Shown one piece after another: positions 43,742 to 54,856 of a DNA stretch of 64,000 bases (the first letter of the stretch is position 1; the number at the start of each line of letters is the position of its first letter). The position numbers and the translations under genes are program-made. The notes beneath the pieces are model-generated. The model was not told where the DNA came from. It saw nothing but the letters and a program-made list of their open reading frames with translations, and ran no database searches. Source of the DNA: Halorhabdus utahensis DSM 12940 (lineage in GTDB: Archaea > Halobacteriota > Halobacteria > Halobacteriales > Haloarculaceae); NCBI RefSeq assembly GCF_000023945.1, contig NC_013158.1, positions 868,001-932,000 of the forward strand. Direction: 5' to 3'.

Positions 43742-43859
43742 ACCACGGAGGGAAATCCACTCCGCGTGAAACAGTAGACTGTCTGAGACGATCCGGAAGC
43801 CTTTTTCACTGGTGGCGACCCAACGTGGGGTAGATGACAACGTCCACGGGGTATCCACG

Positions 43860-44585
43860 ATGGTAGAACTCACCGAAACTGGCATTGACGGGCTCGATTC
43901 GATTCTCAACGGCGGTATCGTGACGAACTCGACGACACTGGTCGTCGGCACACCGGGGGCCGGCAAGAGCATCCTGGGGCTGCAGTTCATCTACAACGGC
44001 GTCACGCAGTCCGACGAACGCGGCATCTACCTCTCCTTCGAGGAGAACCGCGAAGATCTGACAGCGGCGGCCGAATCGATCGGCTTCGATCGGTGGTCGG
44101 AGTTCGAAGACAACGGCGACATCAAGGTCTACGACAAGCGCCGCCTCCTCCAGGAAAACAGCTTCACGGACACCCTCGATGTCCTCCTGGATGACATCCA
44201 AGACGGCGAATACGACCGGCTCGTGTTGGACTCACTGGCCATGTTCGAGTTGTTCTTTGACGACGACGCCGAACGCCGGACGTATCTCCTCAAGTTCACG
44301 GACATCCTGAAACAGAACGGCCTGACCAGCTTGCTGACCAACGAGCAGTCCACGGTGTTTCCCGACAACGACATCGGCTTGGAGAACTTCCTGACGGACG
44401 GCAACATCTATCTGATCCAGACGCCGACCGAGTCGGGAGTCAATCGGTACGTCTGGGTGGCGAAGATGCGCAAACAGGAGATCGAGACGGACATCTTCCC
44501 GATGGAGATCGCCCACGGGGGTATTCAGGTCCACGACAATGCGAGTGCGTTCTCGATGATGAACGACTCCGAGTCGCCGCTGTGA
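43860..44585 (+). CDS. KaiC-like RecA-superfamily ATPase
   Basis: The 241-residue single KaiC domain has Walker A GTPGAGKS (30-37), the catalytic Glu pair in YLSFEENRE, and Walker B RLVLDSLAMFEL. Cyanobacterial KaiC has two such domains and a phosphorylated Ser-Thr pair; that C-terminal site is not recognisable here. It is related in fold to ArlH, which switches by nucleotide binding. Its place after cheW suggests a link to taxis, perhaps signal or energy sensing; the role is inferred only from position. Confidence 0.85.
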   Translation: MVELTETGIDGLDSILNGGIVTNSTTLVVGTPGAGKSILGLQFIYNGVTQSDERGIYLSFEENREDLTAAAESIGFDRWSEFEDNGDIKVYDKRRLLQENSFTDTLDVLLDDIQDGEYDRLVLDSLAMFELFFDDDAERRTYLLKFTDILKQNGLTSLLTNEQSTVFPDNDIGLENFLTDGNIYLIQTPTESGVNRYVWVAKMRKQEIETDIFPMEIAHGGIQVHDNASAFSMMNDSESPL

Positions 44586-44788: not shown

Positions 44789-45124
44789 ATGGCATCGGTC
44801 GAGTTACTGCGGACCCTCGGGAACAAGTACAGCGCCGAGATACTGGACGCGACCGACGAGCCGAAGTCCGCACAGGATCTGAGCGACGAACTCGACATCC
44901 CGATCGCGACCTGTTATCGGCGCATCGACGAGCTCACCGAGCACGATCTGCTGGAGCTTCACGACAACGTGTTGTCCGACGACCGCCGTCGTATCAAGGT
45001 CTATCGGCGAAACGTCGACTCGATCCAGGTCGGGTTCGACGACTCCCTGATGGTCGACGTCCAGGAGCGCTCGGAAGTGACGAACAAACTCGACGAGGCG
45101 TGGCGGACGCTCTCGGAATCCTAG
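44789..45124 (+). CDS. winged-helix transcription regulator
   Basis: The 111-residue protein is an ArsR/TrmB-like winged helix: LLRTLGNKYSAEILDATDEP, recognition region AQDLSDELDIPIATCYRRIDELTEHDLLELHD, and wing VLSDDRRRIKVYRRN. No Cys-based metal site is seen. Small regulators of this kind, just before archaellin genes, are candidates for controlling archaellum expression, as EarA does in methanogens. Whether it is an orthologue cannot be decided here. A small membrane protein gene follows 67 bp later. Confidence 0.82.
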   Translation: MASVELLRTLGNKYSAEILDATDEPKSAQDLSDELDIPIATCYRRIDELTEHDLLELHDNVLSDDRRRIKVYRRNVDSIQVGFDDSLMVDVQERSEVTNKLDEAWRTLSES

Positions 45125-45191: not shown

Positions 45192-45530
45192 ATGCAGATA
45201 TTTTCGAGGAATGATTTAATACGGGTGCTCGGAAACTCTCAGGCAGTGCCAGTACTTGAACTCCTCTATGCGGTTTTGACCCTCGTCTTCGTAGTCGCGG
45301 GACTCACGATGGTCGGTATGGCAGTCCGTGCGTACGCACAAACGTCACGACGGGCGATGTTACACCTCTCGCTCGGGTTCGCGCTGGCGGTGGCCGGCGC
45401 AGCGGCCACGATGATCAGTGCGTTCGTGACTGACTTCGACGGTGCGCGCGGATTGTTGCTCGTCAACAGCGGGTTGACGACGTTTGGCTACCTGTTCGTG
45501 ATGTACAGTCTCGTCACCTACGAAGCGTGA
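45192..45530 (+). CDS. three-helix membrane protein (DUF7521-like)
   Basis: The 112-residue protein has three predicted helices (about 22-45, 54-77, 86-108). It matches small membrane proteins that follow ArsR-like HTH genes in haloarchaea, which I recall as DUF7521. The pairing suggests a membrane sensor or anchor for the regulator. No functional residue is evident beyond the conserved polar loop AYAQTSRRAMLHLSLGF. Confidence 0.75.
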   Translation: MQIFSRNDLIRVLGNSQAVPVLELLYAVLTLVFVVAGLTMVGMAVRAYAQTSRRAMLHLSLGFALAVAGAAATMISAFVTDFDGARGLLLVNSGLTTFGYLFVMYSLVTYEA

Positions 45531-45753: not shown

Positions 45754-46380
45754 ATGTTCGAACGAACCAACGACAAACCGAACGAGCGGGCCCAGGTCGG
45801 GATCGGCACACTCATCGTGTTCATCGCGATGGTGCTGGTCGCCGCGATCGCCGCGGGCGTGCTGATCAACACGGCCGGGTTCCTGCAGAGTAGTGCCGAA
45901 GAAAGTGGTGAACAGGCAGCCGAGCAGGTCACGAATCGCCTGGTCGAAGTCAACACCGTTGGCACAGTCGATACCAGCCAAGATCCGACTGTCGTCACGG
46001 AAGTCAAGATCACGACCCGACTGGCGCCAGGATCGTCCGACGTGGACCTAGATGGCGTGACGATGCAATGGGTCCAAGCAGGCGGGAGTTACAATCTGGT
46101 GTCGGACCAGACCAGCGACATCAATAACGCCGATGGGGTATTCAGTTACGATGAGCTGCGGGACAATGACGGCTCCGTCGGCACCGACAGTACGTTGAAC
46201 AACCGCGTCGACCGCGCAGTCATCACTATCGGCCTCGATGGATCCAATGACAACATTGCCGGTCAGATGGAAGGTGGCGAGACCGCCACGCTGACGATCA
46301 GTACGCAGTCCGGTGGCGAGACCACCATCACGCTGGTCGTGCCGGACTCCCTGACTGAGAAGTCCTCGGTCAACCTGTAA
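45754..46380 (+). CDS. arlA1: archaellin (archaellum filament protein) 1
   Basis: The 208-residue product is an archaellin (flagellin). A type IV prepilin-like signal (ERAQ then [21 protein letters not shown]) is processed by prepilin peptidase close to residue 13-14; the long hydrophobic helix forms the filament core. The surface domain follows (about 75-208). No Cys and no N-x-S/T glycosylation sequon is present. The first 72 residues and last 35 are identical to archaellin 2, encoded 336 bp downstream. This is the major filament subunit candidate. Confidence 0.96.
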
Positions 46381-46716: not shown

Positions 46717-47325
46717 ATGTTCGAACGAACCAACGACAAACCGAACGAGCGAGCCCAGGTCGGGATCGGCACACTCATCGTGTTCATTGCGATGGTGCTG
46801 GTCGCCGCGATCGCCGCGGGCGTGCTGATTAACACGGCCGGGTTCCTGCAGAGTAGTGCCGAAGAAAGTGGTGAACAGGCAGCCGAGCAGGTCACGAATC
46901 GCCTGGTCGAAGTCAACACCGTCGGAACGGTAAACAATGGCCAGGTCGAGGCCGTTGATATCACCGCTCGTCTGGCACCCGGGTCAAACGACGTCGATCT
47001 CGAGGGCGTGACGATGCAATGGGTCCAGGCCGGCGGGAGTTCCAATTTAGTGGCAGACGGTAGTGGCGACGAAGGCAATGCGGATGGTGTCTTTACCTTC
47101 TCAGAGCTGCGGGACAATGACGGCTCCGTCGGCACCGACAACACGTTGAACAACCGCGTCGACCGAGCGATCATCAGCATCGACCTGACACAGACAGACG
47201 TCAGCAGCTCCATGGCAGGTGGCGAGACCGCCACGCTGACGATCAGTACGCAGTCCGGTGGCGAGACCACCATCACGCTGGTCGTGCCGGACTCCCTGAC
47301 TGAGAAGTCCTCGGTCAACCTCTAA
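46717..47325 (+). CDS. arlA2: archaellin (archaellum filament protein) 2
   Basis: The 202-residue archaellin has the same prepilin-like signal and helix as copy 1 (identical to residue 72) and the same last 35 residues. The central surface part differs by many substitutions and a 6-residue net deletion. No N-x-S/T sequon and no Cys is present. Having its own promoter, it can be expressed separately from copy 1, for example as a second filament subunit or to vary the filament surface. Confidence 0.96.
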
Positions 47326-47421: not shown

Positions 47422-48078
47422 ATGCCACCAGGGGACGACAACGACGACGAGGACGGACGCGTGCTCGCCCCCGAGGAGCTCGACATCTCCGAGGACGAGC
47501 ACGTCGCGGAGATCGAGGACGGCCGGTACGTCGTCTCCCCGAATGATCCGATCGGTGATGTCGACGGGATCAAAACAACCGAAACAGAGCCGGAACCAGC
47601 CACCGATGAATCGGAAAGTGACGTCGACGAAGCATCCGATCAGGCGTCGCCAGCCCCGTCAAATACGCCGACGGACGCAGCGTCCGAATCCCGGGAGCCC
47701 TGGCAAGACAACGCAAGCGAGACGGGAGAGATGACCGAAGCGGACGTCGAAGCGTGGCTCCGGGACTCGTTCACTTCGGCTGACTCCAGGTACGGCTTTC
47801 ACGTCACGGCGACGTTCGACGGCCGGGTGTCCCAGCGCCGGATGATGTCCAACGATGTGGTGACGATCTTCGAGAGCCTGATCCTGTGGTACGCCCAGCA
47901 CATCGACAGCGAGACGCCAGTCGAGGAGATCCTCGGTATCCTGCTGACCGAATCGAACGTGCCGATCAGTTACCCGACCGAGAGTCTTTCGGCGGCGATC
48001 AAAGCCCGGGGCCTCGGCCCGGACGATTCGATCGGGGAACTCATGAACGCCATCGGCGACGATGGCTTCGAGCTCTGA
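47422..48078 (+). CDS. archaellum-locus acidic protein (DUF7500-like)
   Basis: The 218-residue soluble protein has an acidic N-terminus (EELDISEDEHVAEIEDGRYVVS, about 17-40), a disordered Thr/Ser/Pro/Glu-rich linker (about 50-105), and a compact C-terminal domain of about 110 residues. The latter contains VEAWLRDSF, GFHVTATFDGRVSQRRMM and VEEILGILLTESNVPISYP. I recall this family as DUF7500 and as commonly near archaellin genes. No function is known. It leads a row of three genes with 1-4 bp gaps or overlaps. Confidence 0.8.
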   Translation: MPPGDDNDDEDGRVLAPEELDISEDEHVAEIEDGRYVVSPNDPIGDVDGIKTTETEPEPATDESESDVDEASDQASPAPSNTPTDAASESREPWQDNASETGEMTEADVEAWLRDSFTSADSRYGFHVTATFDGRVSQRRMMSNDVVTIFESLILWYAQHIDSETPVEEILGILLTESNVPISYPTESLSAAIKARGLGPDDSIGELMNAIGDDGFEL

Positions 48079-48079
48079 G

Positions 48080-48592
48080 ATGAGTCGTGCGTTCGATTCC
48101 TTCTTCGGCGATCCACTCGGCCTGAGCCAGCAACTTCTCGTCGGCGTCGTGGTCGTGACGCTCGTGTTCTCCGGCCCGCTCGTGCCCGGACTGTCGTTCG
48201 GGGGGGCCGGCCCGCCGGCGACGATCGGCGACGGCAACGCCAGCGTCTCGTCGGTGGCTATCGATCTCGACGCCGTCGAGATCACACCCGGCCGGTTCGG
48301 GACTGACGTCGAGTACCTCCGGATTCCGGACGCGAGACTGTCCATCGACGACGTCGAAGGAGAGCCACGGATCGTCTACCGACTGGTCGTCCCGGAACTG
48401 CAACTCGACCACGCCGAGACACGGCTGCTTGCGAGTCCCGGTGACGTCACCGTTCGGCCGAGCGACGTGGCCTTCCTGTCCGGGGAACTGTCGGCAGCGC
48501 ACTATAACGGAACGCTACGCGTTCGCGTCCAATCGCTGTCAACCGATCGAACCGTGTTCAACGAGTCCATCAGGATCGAGGTAAGACGGTGA
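48080..48592 (+). CDS. single-pass membrane-anchored protein of the archaellum locus
   Basis: The 170-residue product has a short cytoplasmic start, one helix at about 15-37 (SQQLLVGVVVVTLVFSGPL) and an exported beta-rich domain (about 45-170). The domain includes the sequons NAS, NGT and NES, so it probably faces outward and may be glycosylated. It starts 1 bp after the preceding stop and overlaps the next gene by four bases. I do not recognise the domain. It could be a periplasmic part of a complex with the large membrane protein that follows. Confidence 0.75.
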   Translation: MSRAFDSFFGDPLGLSQQLLVGVVVVTLVFSGPLVPGLSFGGAGPPATIGDGNASVSSVAIDLDAVEITPGRFGTDVEYLRIPDARLSIDDVEGEPRIVYRLVVPELQLDHAETRLLASPGDVTVRPSDVAFLSGELSAAHYNGTLRVRVQSLSTDRTVFNESIRIEVRR

Positions 48593-50664
48593 CCCGGGTT
48601 GGTGCAGCCGAAGTCGACGAGTGGCTATCCGAACGTGGGTCGATGATCCGTCGACAGGCCGTCGCTGTCCTGTTCGGCGATCGCGTCGGCCTGACCCTGT
48701 TTCTGGGTGTCGTCGTCGTGCTGGCGGCCCTCTGGCGAGTCGGGTTTTTCATCACCGACACCTACGCCATCGCGAACACGCTCGTGAATCTGGCCGACGG
48801 ACGGCTCCACATCGCTCGGATCGAGTACTCGCTGACGCTCGGGTCCCAGCCGGGGTTATACGAACACGGCGGTCAGGTCTTCGGGCGCAACTACGGCCAG
48901 GCGGCACTCGCTCTCCCCTTCTACTGGCTGCTCGAAGGGACCGCGGCACTCGCCGAGTTGCGGCTGGTACTCGCGGGCGGGTGGAGTCTGCTCGTGGCCG
49001 CATTCGCGTCACAGCTCGGTCAGGTGCTTGATCGCCCCCGCGTGACGTTGGCTGGAACGCTGGGCGCGCTGGGCCTGTTCGTCGGCAACGTCGCGCTTTC
49101 GACGCCGCTCGATCCCCGGTGGAACGGCTTGCTCGCTCTCCAGCTCCTCTCGCTGGTGGCGGCAGGTGTGGTCGCCGTGGCGGTGTATCGATTGCTCAGT
49201 GAGTACCACGGACAGCGAGTCGGCGTGGCCGGGGGATTGCTGGCGGCACTCGCCCTGCCGATCGCGTTCTGGGCGACGATGCCGAAACGCCACGTCATGT
49301 CGGCGGCGCTGATCGCAATCGTCGTCTTCGGGTTCGCCCGGAGTCGAAATGCTGCTCGGCCACTACCGTCGCGAGCCCTGTCCTACGCCGCTGTCGGGGT
49401 CCTCGCGTGGCTACACGCCGCCGAGGCGTTGGTGGTGCTGGTGGTACTCGTCCCGTTCGACCTCGCGACCGCTCGACGCAACGGAATTCGAGAGCTAGGC
49501 GTGCTCGGCGTCGTTTTCGCCCTCTCGCTGGTTCCGTTCGGACTGACGAACTACCTCATCACCGGCTCGCCGTTCACTGCCCCGCGAATGCTCTCGAATC
49601 TCGGTGGACTCGCGGAACTCAGCCCCGGGGGAGATATCGTCGTCGACGGCGGTGGCGAGCCCACACAACCGACGACACCGGATCCGACGCCACCGGGCGA
49701 GCCCGCGTCGCCAGGCGAAACGTCACCCCCCGACGGAGCGAGCGGCCCTGGCGATCCCGGGACGGGGCTCTGGAGCCAGATCACCAGTGCTCTCGGTGGT
49801 GTGATCGGACTGGGGGCCACCGGTATCAACGGCGCTATCGGGGTTCTCGACAGCCTCGTCGGGGCGGTCGTGTTCGGCATCGAGGCAGCGGCGGCCCGGA
49901 TCGGCGAGCTGTGGGGATACGTCGCGGAAGGGATCGGGATCGCCTTCGGGGACCTCGAGCGACTCGGCCACGTCTTCCTCAGGAGCGGCCGGATCCCGGG
50001 GGTGGACTACGCGACCAACGACCACGAGACCGTCGAGCTGACCGTCCTGGAAGCCGCGCCGATGCTCGGGACCCTCGTCGCCATCCCGATCGTCCTCGGC
50101 AAACGAGGGCTGGAAAGCGGGGGAGGGAAGCTTCGTGGACGACTGACGGCGATCCGCTCGACTCCGCGATACCAGACGGACCTCTTCGCGGGGACGCTCG
50201 TCGCCGCGTTCACCCTCCTGTACCTGCCCAGACTGCCGCTTTACTCCCAGATCACGGTCCGGTATCTGGTTCCGATCATGCCCGTGGCGGTCTACGGTGT
50301 GATGCGGCTGCCAGCCGTCCGGCGGAGCCTCACGACGAACGTCCGGGAGTTCATCGACGCATACGTCGGAGCCACTGTGGTTGGCATTGTCGGCGTCATC
50401 GCGGTGTTCGTCGCGATCGACCCGGCGATCGGCGAGGCGATGCAGTTTCACGCCCTGTTGAACCTGATCGCTGCGGGGATTGCCGCGGCTGTCGTCGTCC
50501 TGGACACGATCGACGGCCCCGACCTGCCAGTCGCGACGGCGATCGGGACTGCGGGCGGGGCCGCCACGACGCTTTATGTCCTTGCCGGGATCGAGTACAT
50601 CACGTACGGCCAGTTCGCACTCCCGGTCGCCGAGTGGCTCTCGACACTGATTCCAGTGTTCTGA
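48589..50664 (+). CDS. large polytopic membrane protein (possible GT-C glycosyltransferase)
   Basis: The 691-residue protein has about 12 predicted helices in two blocks (about 33-340 and 480-690). Between them is a region with a Pro/Thr/Gly-rich linker (about 357-392; TPDPTPPGEPASPGE). The first outer loop (TDTYAIANTLVNLADGRL) and YEHGGQVFGRNYGQAALALPF resemble lipid-linked-sugar GT-C enzymes, but the usual acidic pair is not clear. It starts at GTG 48589, coupled to the previous gene. Position suggests a job in building or modifying the archaellum; this is inference. Confidence 0.75.
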   Translation: MTRVGAAEVDEWLSERGSMIRRQAVAVLFGDRVGLTLFLGVVVVLAALWRVGFFITDTYAIANTLVNLADGRLHIARIEYSLTLGSQPGLYEHGGQVFGRNYGQAALALPFYWLLEGTAALAELRLVLAGGWSLLVAAFASQLGQVLDRPRVTLAGTLGALGLFVGNVALSTPLDPRWNGLLALQLLSLVAAGVVAVAVYRLLSEYHGQRVGVAGGLLAALALPIAFWATMPKRHVMSAALIAIVVFGFARSRNAARPLPSRALSYAAVGVLAWLHAAEALVVLVVLVPFDLATARRNGIRELGVLGVVFALSLVPFGLTNYLITGSPFTAPRMLSNLGGLAELSPGGDIVVDGGGEPTQPTTPDPTPPGEPASPGETSPPDGASGPGDPGTGLWSQITSALGGVIGLGATGINGAIGVLDSLVGAVVFGIEAAAARIGELWGYVAEGIGIAFGDLERLGHVFLRSGRIPGVDYATNDHETVELTVLEAAPMLGTLVAIPIVLGKRGLESGGGKLRGRLTAIRSTPRYQTDLFAGTLVAAFTLLYLPRLPLYSQITVRYLVPIMPVAVYGVMRLPAVRRSLTTNVREFIDAYVGATVVGIVGVIAVFVAIDPAIGEAMQFHALLNLIAAGIAAAVVVLDTIDGPDLPVATAIGTAGGAATTLYVLAGIEYITYGQFALPVAEWLSTLIPVF

Positions 50665-53134: not shown

Positions 53135-54856
53135 ATGAGTACGCTCTCGTTGCTCCAGTCCGGGACAGTGGTCGAGGGGGTGGACCCTACCCTCCTCGCG
53201 GCCACCGGTGACTGGATCGTCGAGTCGGTCGGCTCGCTGTCGACCGAACCGCTCGCCGTCGGTGTCCTGACGGTGGGGGTGGTCGGCATGAGTATCCGAT
53301 CCGTCTTCGACTCGATCCTCTCGGACGAGGACGGGGGCCCCGACGTGGACGAGGGGGACGACGACGGGTTGATGCCCGAGGAAGGCGGGGATGACCTCGG
53401 CGACCTTGGCGGCGGGTTCGGTGATGGCGGCGACGACTTCGGAGATTTCGAAGACGACGACTTCGGCGAGATGGACGGGGGCGGTGCGGACACTGACGAA
53501 CTACAGCACCGCCTCGACGAGCTCGAAACCGAGGTCGGCAGCCTCTCCTCGACGGTCAACACGGTCCGCAACGAGAACGAGCAGATCTCTGAAACGGTCG
53601 ACGACGTCGAGGAAAACGTTCGAAAACTGCTCGACATCTACGAGATGGTGACTCGGGGCGTCAATCCCTTCGCCGACGACATCGACGCCGGCGGATTGGG
53701 CGGCCCCGGAGAGGAGTCGTTTGGCCTCTTCGACAATGGTGACGACCAGTCCGAAGAGGGAGACCTCGACGAAGACATCGCCAACGCCGACGCGGAAGGG
53801 TTCTTCGACGAAGACCTCGTCGAGGACGACGAGCTGGAAGCCGATGCCGACGTCGGCGATGTCCTGGGCACGGGCGAAGACGACGGCGGTGACGACGGTG
53901 GGTTCGAAGACGACTTCGAGGACGACTTCGACATGGACGATGATTTCGGCGACGCCGAAGACGACTTCGACATGGACGAGGGCGGCGACGGTGACGCGGA
54001 CAGCGGCGGTGAGGGCGGGAAATCCTTCGCCGAGCTCAAAGACGAGTACGAGGCCGGCGACGCCGAATGGGCCGAAGGCGACGCCGAAGATCCGGACGAA
54101 AGCATCGAGGAGACGACCGACGACCTGGCGGCAGACGACGACTCGCTTGATGACGATGAAGCCCTCGTGGACGAGGACGACGACTTCGCCATGGAGGACG
54201 ACGGTGGAGAGGCGGGCGACGGGCTGGCCGACGACGATCTCTTCGATACGGTTATCGAGGACGAGGGCGACGAAGAGAGCGCAGACGAGGCTGTCGATGC
54301 GACTGAATCCGCCACGAGCGTCGTCGAGGACGACACAGAGACAGAAGAAACCGAGCCGGATCAGGAGACGATTACCCCCGAGGAGGAGAGCGTCACGGAA
54401 ACGGCGCAGACCGAGGAGGACGCGACTGAGCCGGCGGCCAACGCCGAAGCGCCGTCAGCCAAAGAAGAGGCCGACGGGTCGGGAGCAACCGAAGGAGCGA
54501 GCGCCGAATCCGACGACGGAAAGCCATACCTCACGTCGCTTCCGGACGGGTTCCTCGCCGACCTGATCGTCGTCGAATGGCTGGAGTTCCTGGTCGAGGA
54601 AGTCGGGATCCGGGCCACCGCGGAGGCCATCGACTACTACGAACGCATCGACTGGATCGACGAGTCCGTCGCCGACCAGTTACAGGCGTACCTCAAGGGC
54701 TTCGAGGAAGGCGGTGAGTCCGAGAGCCTGACCATCGACCACCACACCAAGAGTCTGCGGTACGTGAGCCAGCTGAACGGCGGCGGGGCGGAGTCGATCG
54801 CCCTCCAACAGCTGCCACGCCAGACCGGAGGTGGCCCCGATGGGATTCAGCGTTAG
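53135..54856 (+). CDS. arlCE: archaellum stator-associated fusion protein ArlCE (FlaC/D/E)
   Basis: The 573-residue protein joins ArlC and ArlD/E modules. After a hydrophobic-leaning N-terminus (about 1-60) come an Asp/Gly-rich stretch, a coiled coil (about 120-170, DELQHRLDELETEVGSLSSTV) with the ArlC-type VNPFADD, and an acidic linker (about 190-460). The C-terminal ArlD/E domain (about 470-560) includes LTSLPDGFLADLIVVEWLEF and SLRYVSQLNGG. In Haloferax, ArlCDE form a cytoplasmic ring and connect CheF/CheY to the motor. It starts the arlCE-FGHIJ operon. Confidence 0.93.
   Translation: MSTLSLLQSGTVVEGVDPTLLAATGDWIVESVGSLSTEPLAVGVLTVGVVGMSIRSVFDSILSDEDGGPDVDEGDDDGLMPEEGGDDLGDLGGGFGDGGDDFGDFEDDDFGEMDGGGADTDELQHRLDELETEVGSLSSTVNTVRNENEQISETVDDVEENVRKLLDIYEMVTRGVNPFADDIDAGGLGGPGEESFGLFDNGDDQSEEGDLDEDIANADAEGFFDEDLVEDDELEADADVGDVLGTGEDDGGDDGGFEDDFEDDFDMDDDFGDAEDDFDMDEGGDGDADSGGEGGKSFAELKDEYEAGDAEWAEGDAEDPDESIEETTDDLAADDDSLDDDEALVDEDDDFAMEDDGGEAGDGLADDDLFDTVIEDEGDEESADEAVDATESATSVVEDDTETEETEPDQETITPEEESVTETAQTEEDATEPAANAEAPSAKEEADGSGATEGASAESDDGKPYLTSLPDGFLADLIVVEWLEFLVEEVGIRATAEAIDYYERIDWIDESVADQLQAYLKGFEEGGESESLTIDHHTKSLRYVSQLNGGGAESIALQQLPRQTGGGPDGIQR

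Follow-up and report, generated by a model that had tools for sequence, protein, structure and literature searches.

Between two archaellin genes and cheY, the 64,000-nucleotide stretch of Halorhabdus utahensis DSM 12940 analysed here (contig NC_013158.1, positions 868,001 to 932,000, forward strand; hereafter the window, whose numbering is used unless the contig or another stretch is named) carries three genes, which we call P1, P2 and P3. These genes represent a conserved archaellum gene of a known family (P1) and a separate, little-described two-gene module (P2-P3), in which a known enzyme fold appears in a new setting. In our judgement, there is an even chance that P2-P3 is an accessory protein glycosylation module dedicated to filaments, which would stand in for the enzyme AglB on the archaellum, perhaps through O-linked sugars. 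If this is true, the sugar coat of an archaellum can come from another enzyme, whose module is cleanly present or absent among members of a single genus, and the function of the coat becomes directly testable by swapping the module.

P1 (47422..48078, + strand) starts with an ATG 96 bp past the stop of the second archaellin gene (47325) and ends with a stop codon at 48076-48078; it encodes an acidic protein of 218 residues without a membrane segment. One base beyond this stop, P2 (48080..48592, + strand; 170 residues) starts with an ATG, and P3 (48589..50664, + strand) starts with a GTG in a 4-bp overlap with the end of P2 and encodes a polytopic protein of 691 residues. The next gene downstream is cheY, from 50769, whose receiver domain was confirmed. 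The original prediction, made from the sequence alone, had described three tightly coupled genes encoding a soluble acidic protein, a single-pass protein with a sequon-bearing exported domain and a membrane protein with features of GT-C glycosyltransferases, all linked to the filament. These observations were borne out by our analysis, while their interpretation as a single three-part membrane complex was only partly right.

Fold of P3 and of its partner P2

The AlphaFold2 (AF2) model of P3 (predicted local distance difference test score, pLDDT, 87.4; predicted template modelling score 0.88) showed a GT-C fold. In the structure search (VIA), the best match was ArnT (5ezm; Z 20.5 over 379 residues, root mean square deviation 5.4; Foldseek E 2.8e-4), and other matches included ALG12 (Z 19.9), STT3 (19.2), AglB (3waj; 17.8) and Pmt4 (17.1). 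Rows 1-46 of the VIA list were all GT-C enzymes or their kin, among which we count GPI transamidase subunit U, presumably a GT-C relative, and at row 47 the score fell to Z 7.1. Judged by this model, P3 is a member of the GT-C glycosyltransferase superfamily by fold. Across 57 P3 sequences, 22 columns were invariant, including D57, R100, K233, R234, H235, E488 and R558. In GT-C enzymes, the first outer loop, which follows the first transmembrane helix, contains a conserved acidic residue; in P3, this feature is provided by the invariant D57, which lies at the start of helix 56-69, the first outer helix after helix 32-47.

No Pfam or other family cut-off was reached by P3. The PMT_2 profile gave weak matches in 7 of the 57 members (best 6.1e-5) and none in the P3 of the window, and NF047440 (LA_3751 putative glycosyltransferase) matched 16 of the 57 weakly (best 1.6e-8), below its curated cut-off of 200 bits among the matches listed, with 21.5 bits for the window's P3. 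The STT3 profile PF02516 had no match at E 0.1 in any of the 57 members. STT3 and AglB are marked by the WWDxG motif, and no WWD was present in the P3 sequence of the window. Sequence searches of the PDB with the profiles of P1, P2 and P3 also yielded no meaningful match.

For P2, the AF2 model (pLDDT 84.9) consisted of a helix at residues 15-30 followed by a confident beta-sandwich domain, and the sequence contained three N-x-S/T sites. P2 matched no Pfam family at E 1, and a search with 48 relatives at E 0.1 returned neither PF01917 nor PF07790, which gives no sign of an archaellin- or pilin-like subunit. Its best fold match was a glycosidase domain (Z 9.9) with many ties, among them subunits of the TRAP translocon (Z about 8); because this is a common type of beta-sandwich with many ties, we took the fold of P2 as uninformative.

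Distribution of P1 and of the P2-P3 pair

P1 is a full-length member of DUF7500 (PF24332; 233.3 bits over positions 1-187 of the 187-position profile, with a Pfam cut-off of 27 bits). DUF7500 was present in 36 of 59 related genomes, one of these matches (G044) being below the cut-off, and archaellins were found in exactly the same 36. In 33 of them, DUF7500 lies at most about 12 kb from an archaellin-family gene, and in the remaining three (G012, G026 and G044) the two are on separate contigs of broken assemblies. A larger set of 117 genomes, which overlaps the first in part, included 70 genomes with both and 43 with neither; archaellins occurred alone in two genomes (G080, and G121, which has a weak match) and DUF7500 alone in two, both with matches below the cut-off. 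Because the distribution of P1 equals that of the archaellins among the 59 genomes, P1 behaves as a core protein of the archaellum or of taxis, general to haloarchaea, and not as part of a P2-P3 enzyme; as a guess, it could be a cytosolic archaellum or taxis adaptor. Comparison of the P1 profile with nine ArlCDE sequences by hhalign, with thin profiles, gave a probability of 3.4 over 11 columns. Our literature search found no paper on DUF7500, a family previously without a recorded function, which now has a role to look for, since it almost always accompanies archaellins.

The distribution of the other two genes is different. P3 was found in 23 and P2 in 22 of the 59 genomes, and their homologues keep the same order in many genomes. 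The pair, or the P2 of the pair, stands beside the archaellum in 12 of the 36 archaellate genomes, and P1 occurs without the pair in 24. Within the genus of the window, P2-P3 is present in three of seven genomes and absent from four, all of which have DUF7500 and archaellins; in the two pairless genomes of this genus that were laid out (L081 and L082), cheY directly follows DUF7500. Clear copies of P3 were also present in six genomes without archaellins (seven if a marginal match in G009 is counted). P2-P3 is thus a module separate from P1. A scan of named genomes added 71 further loci, including ones in Haloarcula, Halorientalis, Halomicrobium, Natrinema, Natronomonas and Halosimplex, while a search of plasmids with P3 and a search of PHROGs gave no match. 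Among the papers found for haloarchaeal archaellins together with O-linked or GT-C enzymes, none describes the P2-P3 module in its title or abstract, nor did we find a paper on HVO_1213 to 1216.

The neighbourhood of 89 non-identical P3 copies was classified by the presence, within 3 kb upstream, of an archaellin or of a PilA-type pilin (AVSPVIG motif) on the same strand. Archaellins were upstream of 25 copies, pilins of 35 and neither of 23, and six copies were at a contig edge; 71 of the 89 had P2 immediately upstream. Among the 64 copies not beside archaellins, the 35 with a same-strand pilin compare with a chance expectation of about 0.5%, estimated from 10 Pilin_N genes in the 3.1-Mb genome of the window. 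In a quick tree, all 25 archaellin-linked P3 fell within one clade of 31 rows (Shimodaira-Hasegawa approximate likelihood ratio test support 98), and a single change of context sufficed for the rows with an archaellin or pilin label. No DUF7500 gene separates the pair from the archaellins upstream of it in Natrinema, Natronomonas and G007. The predicted link of these genes to filaments was therefore upheld, through archaellins for P1 and through archaellins or pilins for P3, and the expectation that the whole trio is conserved beside archaellins held for P1 (36 of 36 genomes) but not for P2-P3. Under the condition for refutation set with that prediction, most copies of the pair count as lying away from motility genes. 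A role of P2-P3 in the archaellum only is ruled out by the pilin loci and by the archaellin-free genomes carrying the pair.

Around the pilin-type loci, a GT2 and GtrA pair was found in 25 of 35 stretches and DUF2298 in 26 of 35; in L078 (5554-6770) and L092 (5044-6481), for example, the GT2 and GtrA genes overlap and DUF2298 is close by. Genes of the GT2 and GtrA types make and flip lipid-phosphate sugar carriers in known systems. The pair itself is not always intact or beside a filament gene. In G025 (L069 and L070), P2 is still beside DUF7500 at the archaellum locus, while P3 is relocated about 245 kb away, and related P3 of Halorientalis (L107, L110 and L111) likewise lack an adjacent P2. 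A second P2-P3 pair of the genome of the window (L086, 8998-11537) occupies 563.1-565.5 kb on the contig without a pilin directly beside it, the nearest listed pilin being at 574.6 kb; its neighbours are, on one side, genes that look like an Mrp antiporter operon, judged by cluster alone, and, on the other, a phosphoribosyltransferase. In genus g24, a protein of 800 residues of an unrecognised kind (L258, 9873-12275; L265, 7495-9861) lies between DUF7500 and the cheC-like gene, in the slot that P2-P3 takes up in the window.

Sequons of the archaellins

The two archaellins of the window (45754..46380 and 46717..47325, both + strand), which are the presumed substrates of P3, matched PF01917 (E 1e-31 for the first; own-genome search for the second), and neither contains N-x-S/T in its exported part. 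To extend this observation, sequons were counted in archaellins of genomes with and without an archaellum-linked module, and the expected numbers were obtained from shuffles of the same sequences. In 25 module-bearing genomes, 36 archaellins contained 23 sequons versus 76.5 expected, and 22 of these archaellins contained none. In 61 genomes without such a module, 109 archaellins contained 320 sequons versus 240.7 expected, and 27 contained none. Rank tests separated the two groups (p 2.9e-6 per genome; p 2.7e-4 per genus, with 13 and 30 genera), also among the genera of the window's own family (8 and 9 genera; p 0.020). The same contrast was seen within single genera: mean sequons per 100 residues were 0.41 with and 2.58 without the module in genus g1, and 0.0 and 3.53 in genus g3, and the module-bearing archaellins of Natrinema were also depleted. 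Of the 24 such archaellate genomes among the 59, the module-free side comprised 23 (all but G012, which was out because of fragments), and the 117-genome sample supplied a further 38 of 50; this side includes genomes with P3 copies elsewhere (G018, G020, G021, G112, G119 and G141). Left out of the count were 25 ArlF/ArlG-like proteins, three without the motif, two with unknown bases, one identical and one short; through these exclusions, G010 and Haloarcula japonica fell out of the module-bearing side.

Loss of AglB as the cause of sequon loss is ruled out, because STT3/AglB was present in all 12 module-bearing genomes among the 59. In G008, which has no module and an archaellin with six sequons, the STT3 search gave no match, and its AglB may be weakly matching or divergent. 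Archaellins far from the main locus showed no clear trend (seven proteins, 14 sequons versus 12.6); of five in module-bearing genomes, three contained no sequon and two contained three each.

In the archaellin alignment, with positions counted from the G of GIGTLI, serine or threonine was enriched in module-bearing rows at position 82 (22/35 versus 0/22), position 158 (31/35 versus 5/22) and position 183 (32/34 versus 3/22). Position 79, a sequon asparagine, is aspartate in 34 of 35 module-bearing rows versus 6 of 22 others, and asparagine in 16 of those 22. Because these column differences are uncorrected for kinship, they are only a hint. PMC6528647 reports a second band of FlaB in Haloarcula marismortui, from which incomplete glycosylation was suspected. 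This suspicion would be odd if the archaellins of that species are without sequons, which is mostly the case in the Haloarcula species of our count (0 to 2 per genome).

Sequon-free archaellins also occur where no P3 was found (L257, L258 and L259-L263; G053, G065, G033, G096, G094 and G087). Twelve further stretches around sequon-free archaellins of pairless genomes were checked by gene labels for another glycosyltransferase and contained no P2 or P3; three extra genes there were, by Pfam, one unrecognised, one with a weak match to DUF7827 and one LPG-synthase-like.

Mode of action, alternatives and known systems

Under the reading that P2-P3 glycosylates filaments, P3 would work on the outer side of the membrane and move a sugar from a lipid-phosphate carrier to the exported domain of those filament subunits whose genes lie just upstream; these would be archaellins in the window and PilA-type pilins at the sister loci. 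The transfer would take place before or during filament assembly, and the anchored beta-sandwich P2 might present the subunit or steady P3. Lineages that have the module in its archaellum version would have lost most AglB sequons from their archaellins, and the new decoration, perhaps O-linked, would replace the N-glycans; it is the sequon loss that suggests such a stand-in coat. The GT-C fold, the linkage and co-occurrence with filament genes, the clade structure and the sequon depletion are established here and speak for this reading, as do the GT2, GtrA and DUF2298 genes of the pilin-type loci; catalysis, donor, substrate, acceptor residue and bond type, and the roles of P2 and P1, are inferred. 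N-glycans are needed for archaella in Halobacterium and keep the filaments apart, according to PMC6591318 and PMC11239922. A fuller scenario, which we hold tentatively and rate below an even chance, starts from an AglB-independent, probably O-linked filament glycosylation by P2-P3 in type IV pili. A single transfer would have brought it to the archaellum, where it replaced the N-glycans in their function; the archaellins would then have lost sequons and acquired conserved Ser/Thr at a small number of sites.

Several observations weigh against glycosylation of filaments by P2-P3. The archaellins of 11 of the 61 genomes without the module were sequon-free, and P3 was present elsewhere in three of these (G020, G112 and G119) and not found in eight; conversely, at least one sequon was kept in 11 of the 25 module-bearing genomes, and Salinibaculum (G019 and KK48) and G031 exceeded the expected count despite the module. 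A pair test on the DUF7500 tree, with three independent supported pairs (mean 2.2 agreeing and 0.1 disagreeing, median p 0.5), lacks power as a correction for kinship. An alternative is that lineage history or habitat brought about the sequon depletion as a side effect, independent of the module. The small number of supported pairs and the pairless lineages whose archaellins are sequon-free speak for this explanation, but we consider it somewhat unlikely, as it does not fit the within-genus contrasts in g1 and g3 or the depletion seen again in Natrinema. The pilins beside the pair were mildly depleted (56 sequons versus 102.4 expected in 70 pilins), and six pilins of the window's genome that are not beside the pair were also sequon-free (0 versus 6.6); therefore, this depletion is not specific to adjacency. 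In addition, GT2-GtrA was found in none of the 25 archaellum-type stretches, so the sugar donor there would have to come from elsewhere, and a phosphoribosyltransferase is also kept in 27 of the 35 pilin-type neighbourhoods, so the shared synteny may be mere neighbourhood. Finally, lipids and glycans are also among the substrates of GT-C enzymes, and 23 of the P3 copies are near neither filament gene.

The last point favours the possibility that P3 acts elsewhere, with the AglB glycan, a lipid or the S-layer as the acceptor of its sugar, and that its proximity to filament genes reflects only co-regulation; ArnT, its best fold match, is lipid-modifying, and AglB is retained. We regard this as unlikely, since more than half of the copies not beside archaellins (35 of 64) are directly behind pilins and since extension of N-glycans leaves the avoidance of sequons in the adjoining archaellins unexplained. 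Still less probable is an assembly or anchoring complex, in which P3 would be a catalysis-dead GT-C scaffold that holds the filament base or escorts subunits. The exported Ig-like domain of P2, with TRAP subunits among its tied fold matches, would suit such a role, as would the position of the pair, which is always behind subunit genes when linked; nevertheless, the invariant polar residues D57, K233, R234, H235, E488 and R558 resemble an active site, some members of one genus do without the module, and the sequon depletion would again be unexplained. That P1, P2 and P3 form one archaellum complex, as originally proposed, is largely refuted and very improbable in our view. It has in its favour the one-base and overlapping junctions in the window and the trio order in at least 17 stretches with P3 beside archaellins, but the differing distributions rule against it: P1 is without the pair in two dozen archaellate genomes, and the pair occurs without an intervening P1 in Natrinema, Natronomonas and G007 and in genomes that have no archaellins.

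Other genes of the window extend the archaellum locus. Upstream of the archaellins lie a KaiC-like gene (43812-44585) and a small winged-helix gene (44789-45124); their domains and position make them likely counterparts of the Haloferax volcanii genes cirA and csmR described in PMC13286277. Between this regulator gene and the archaellins lies a DUF7521 membrane protein of 112 residues (45192-45530), which has the same place in many archaellum stretches. A single protein of 573 residues (53135-54856) contains both FlaC and FlaD/E regions.

Among known systems, AglB/STT3 shares the GT-C fold with P3 and glycosylates proteins at the outer face, and archaellins are its known substrates, as given in PMC6591318 and PMC11239922. 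P3 differs from it in having no STT3 Pfam match, in coexisting with a separate AglB gene and in lying beside archaellins that are short of AglB sequons. ArnT and the PMT-type GT-C enzymes, which use lipid-monophosphate sugars, resemble P3 in the best fold match and in the weak PMT_2 hits; P3 reaches no cut-off of these families and forms a two-gene unit with P2. In Pseudomonas, the gene of the pilin O-glycosyltransferase TfpO/PilO is next to pilA, and P2-P3 shares with this system a dedicated transferase gene right behind the gene of the filament subunit. Unlike TfpO/PilO, which is bacterial and of another protein family, the module described here includes an anchored partner protein and also exists in a form linked to the archaellum.

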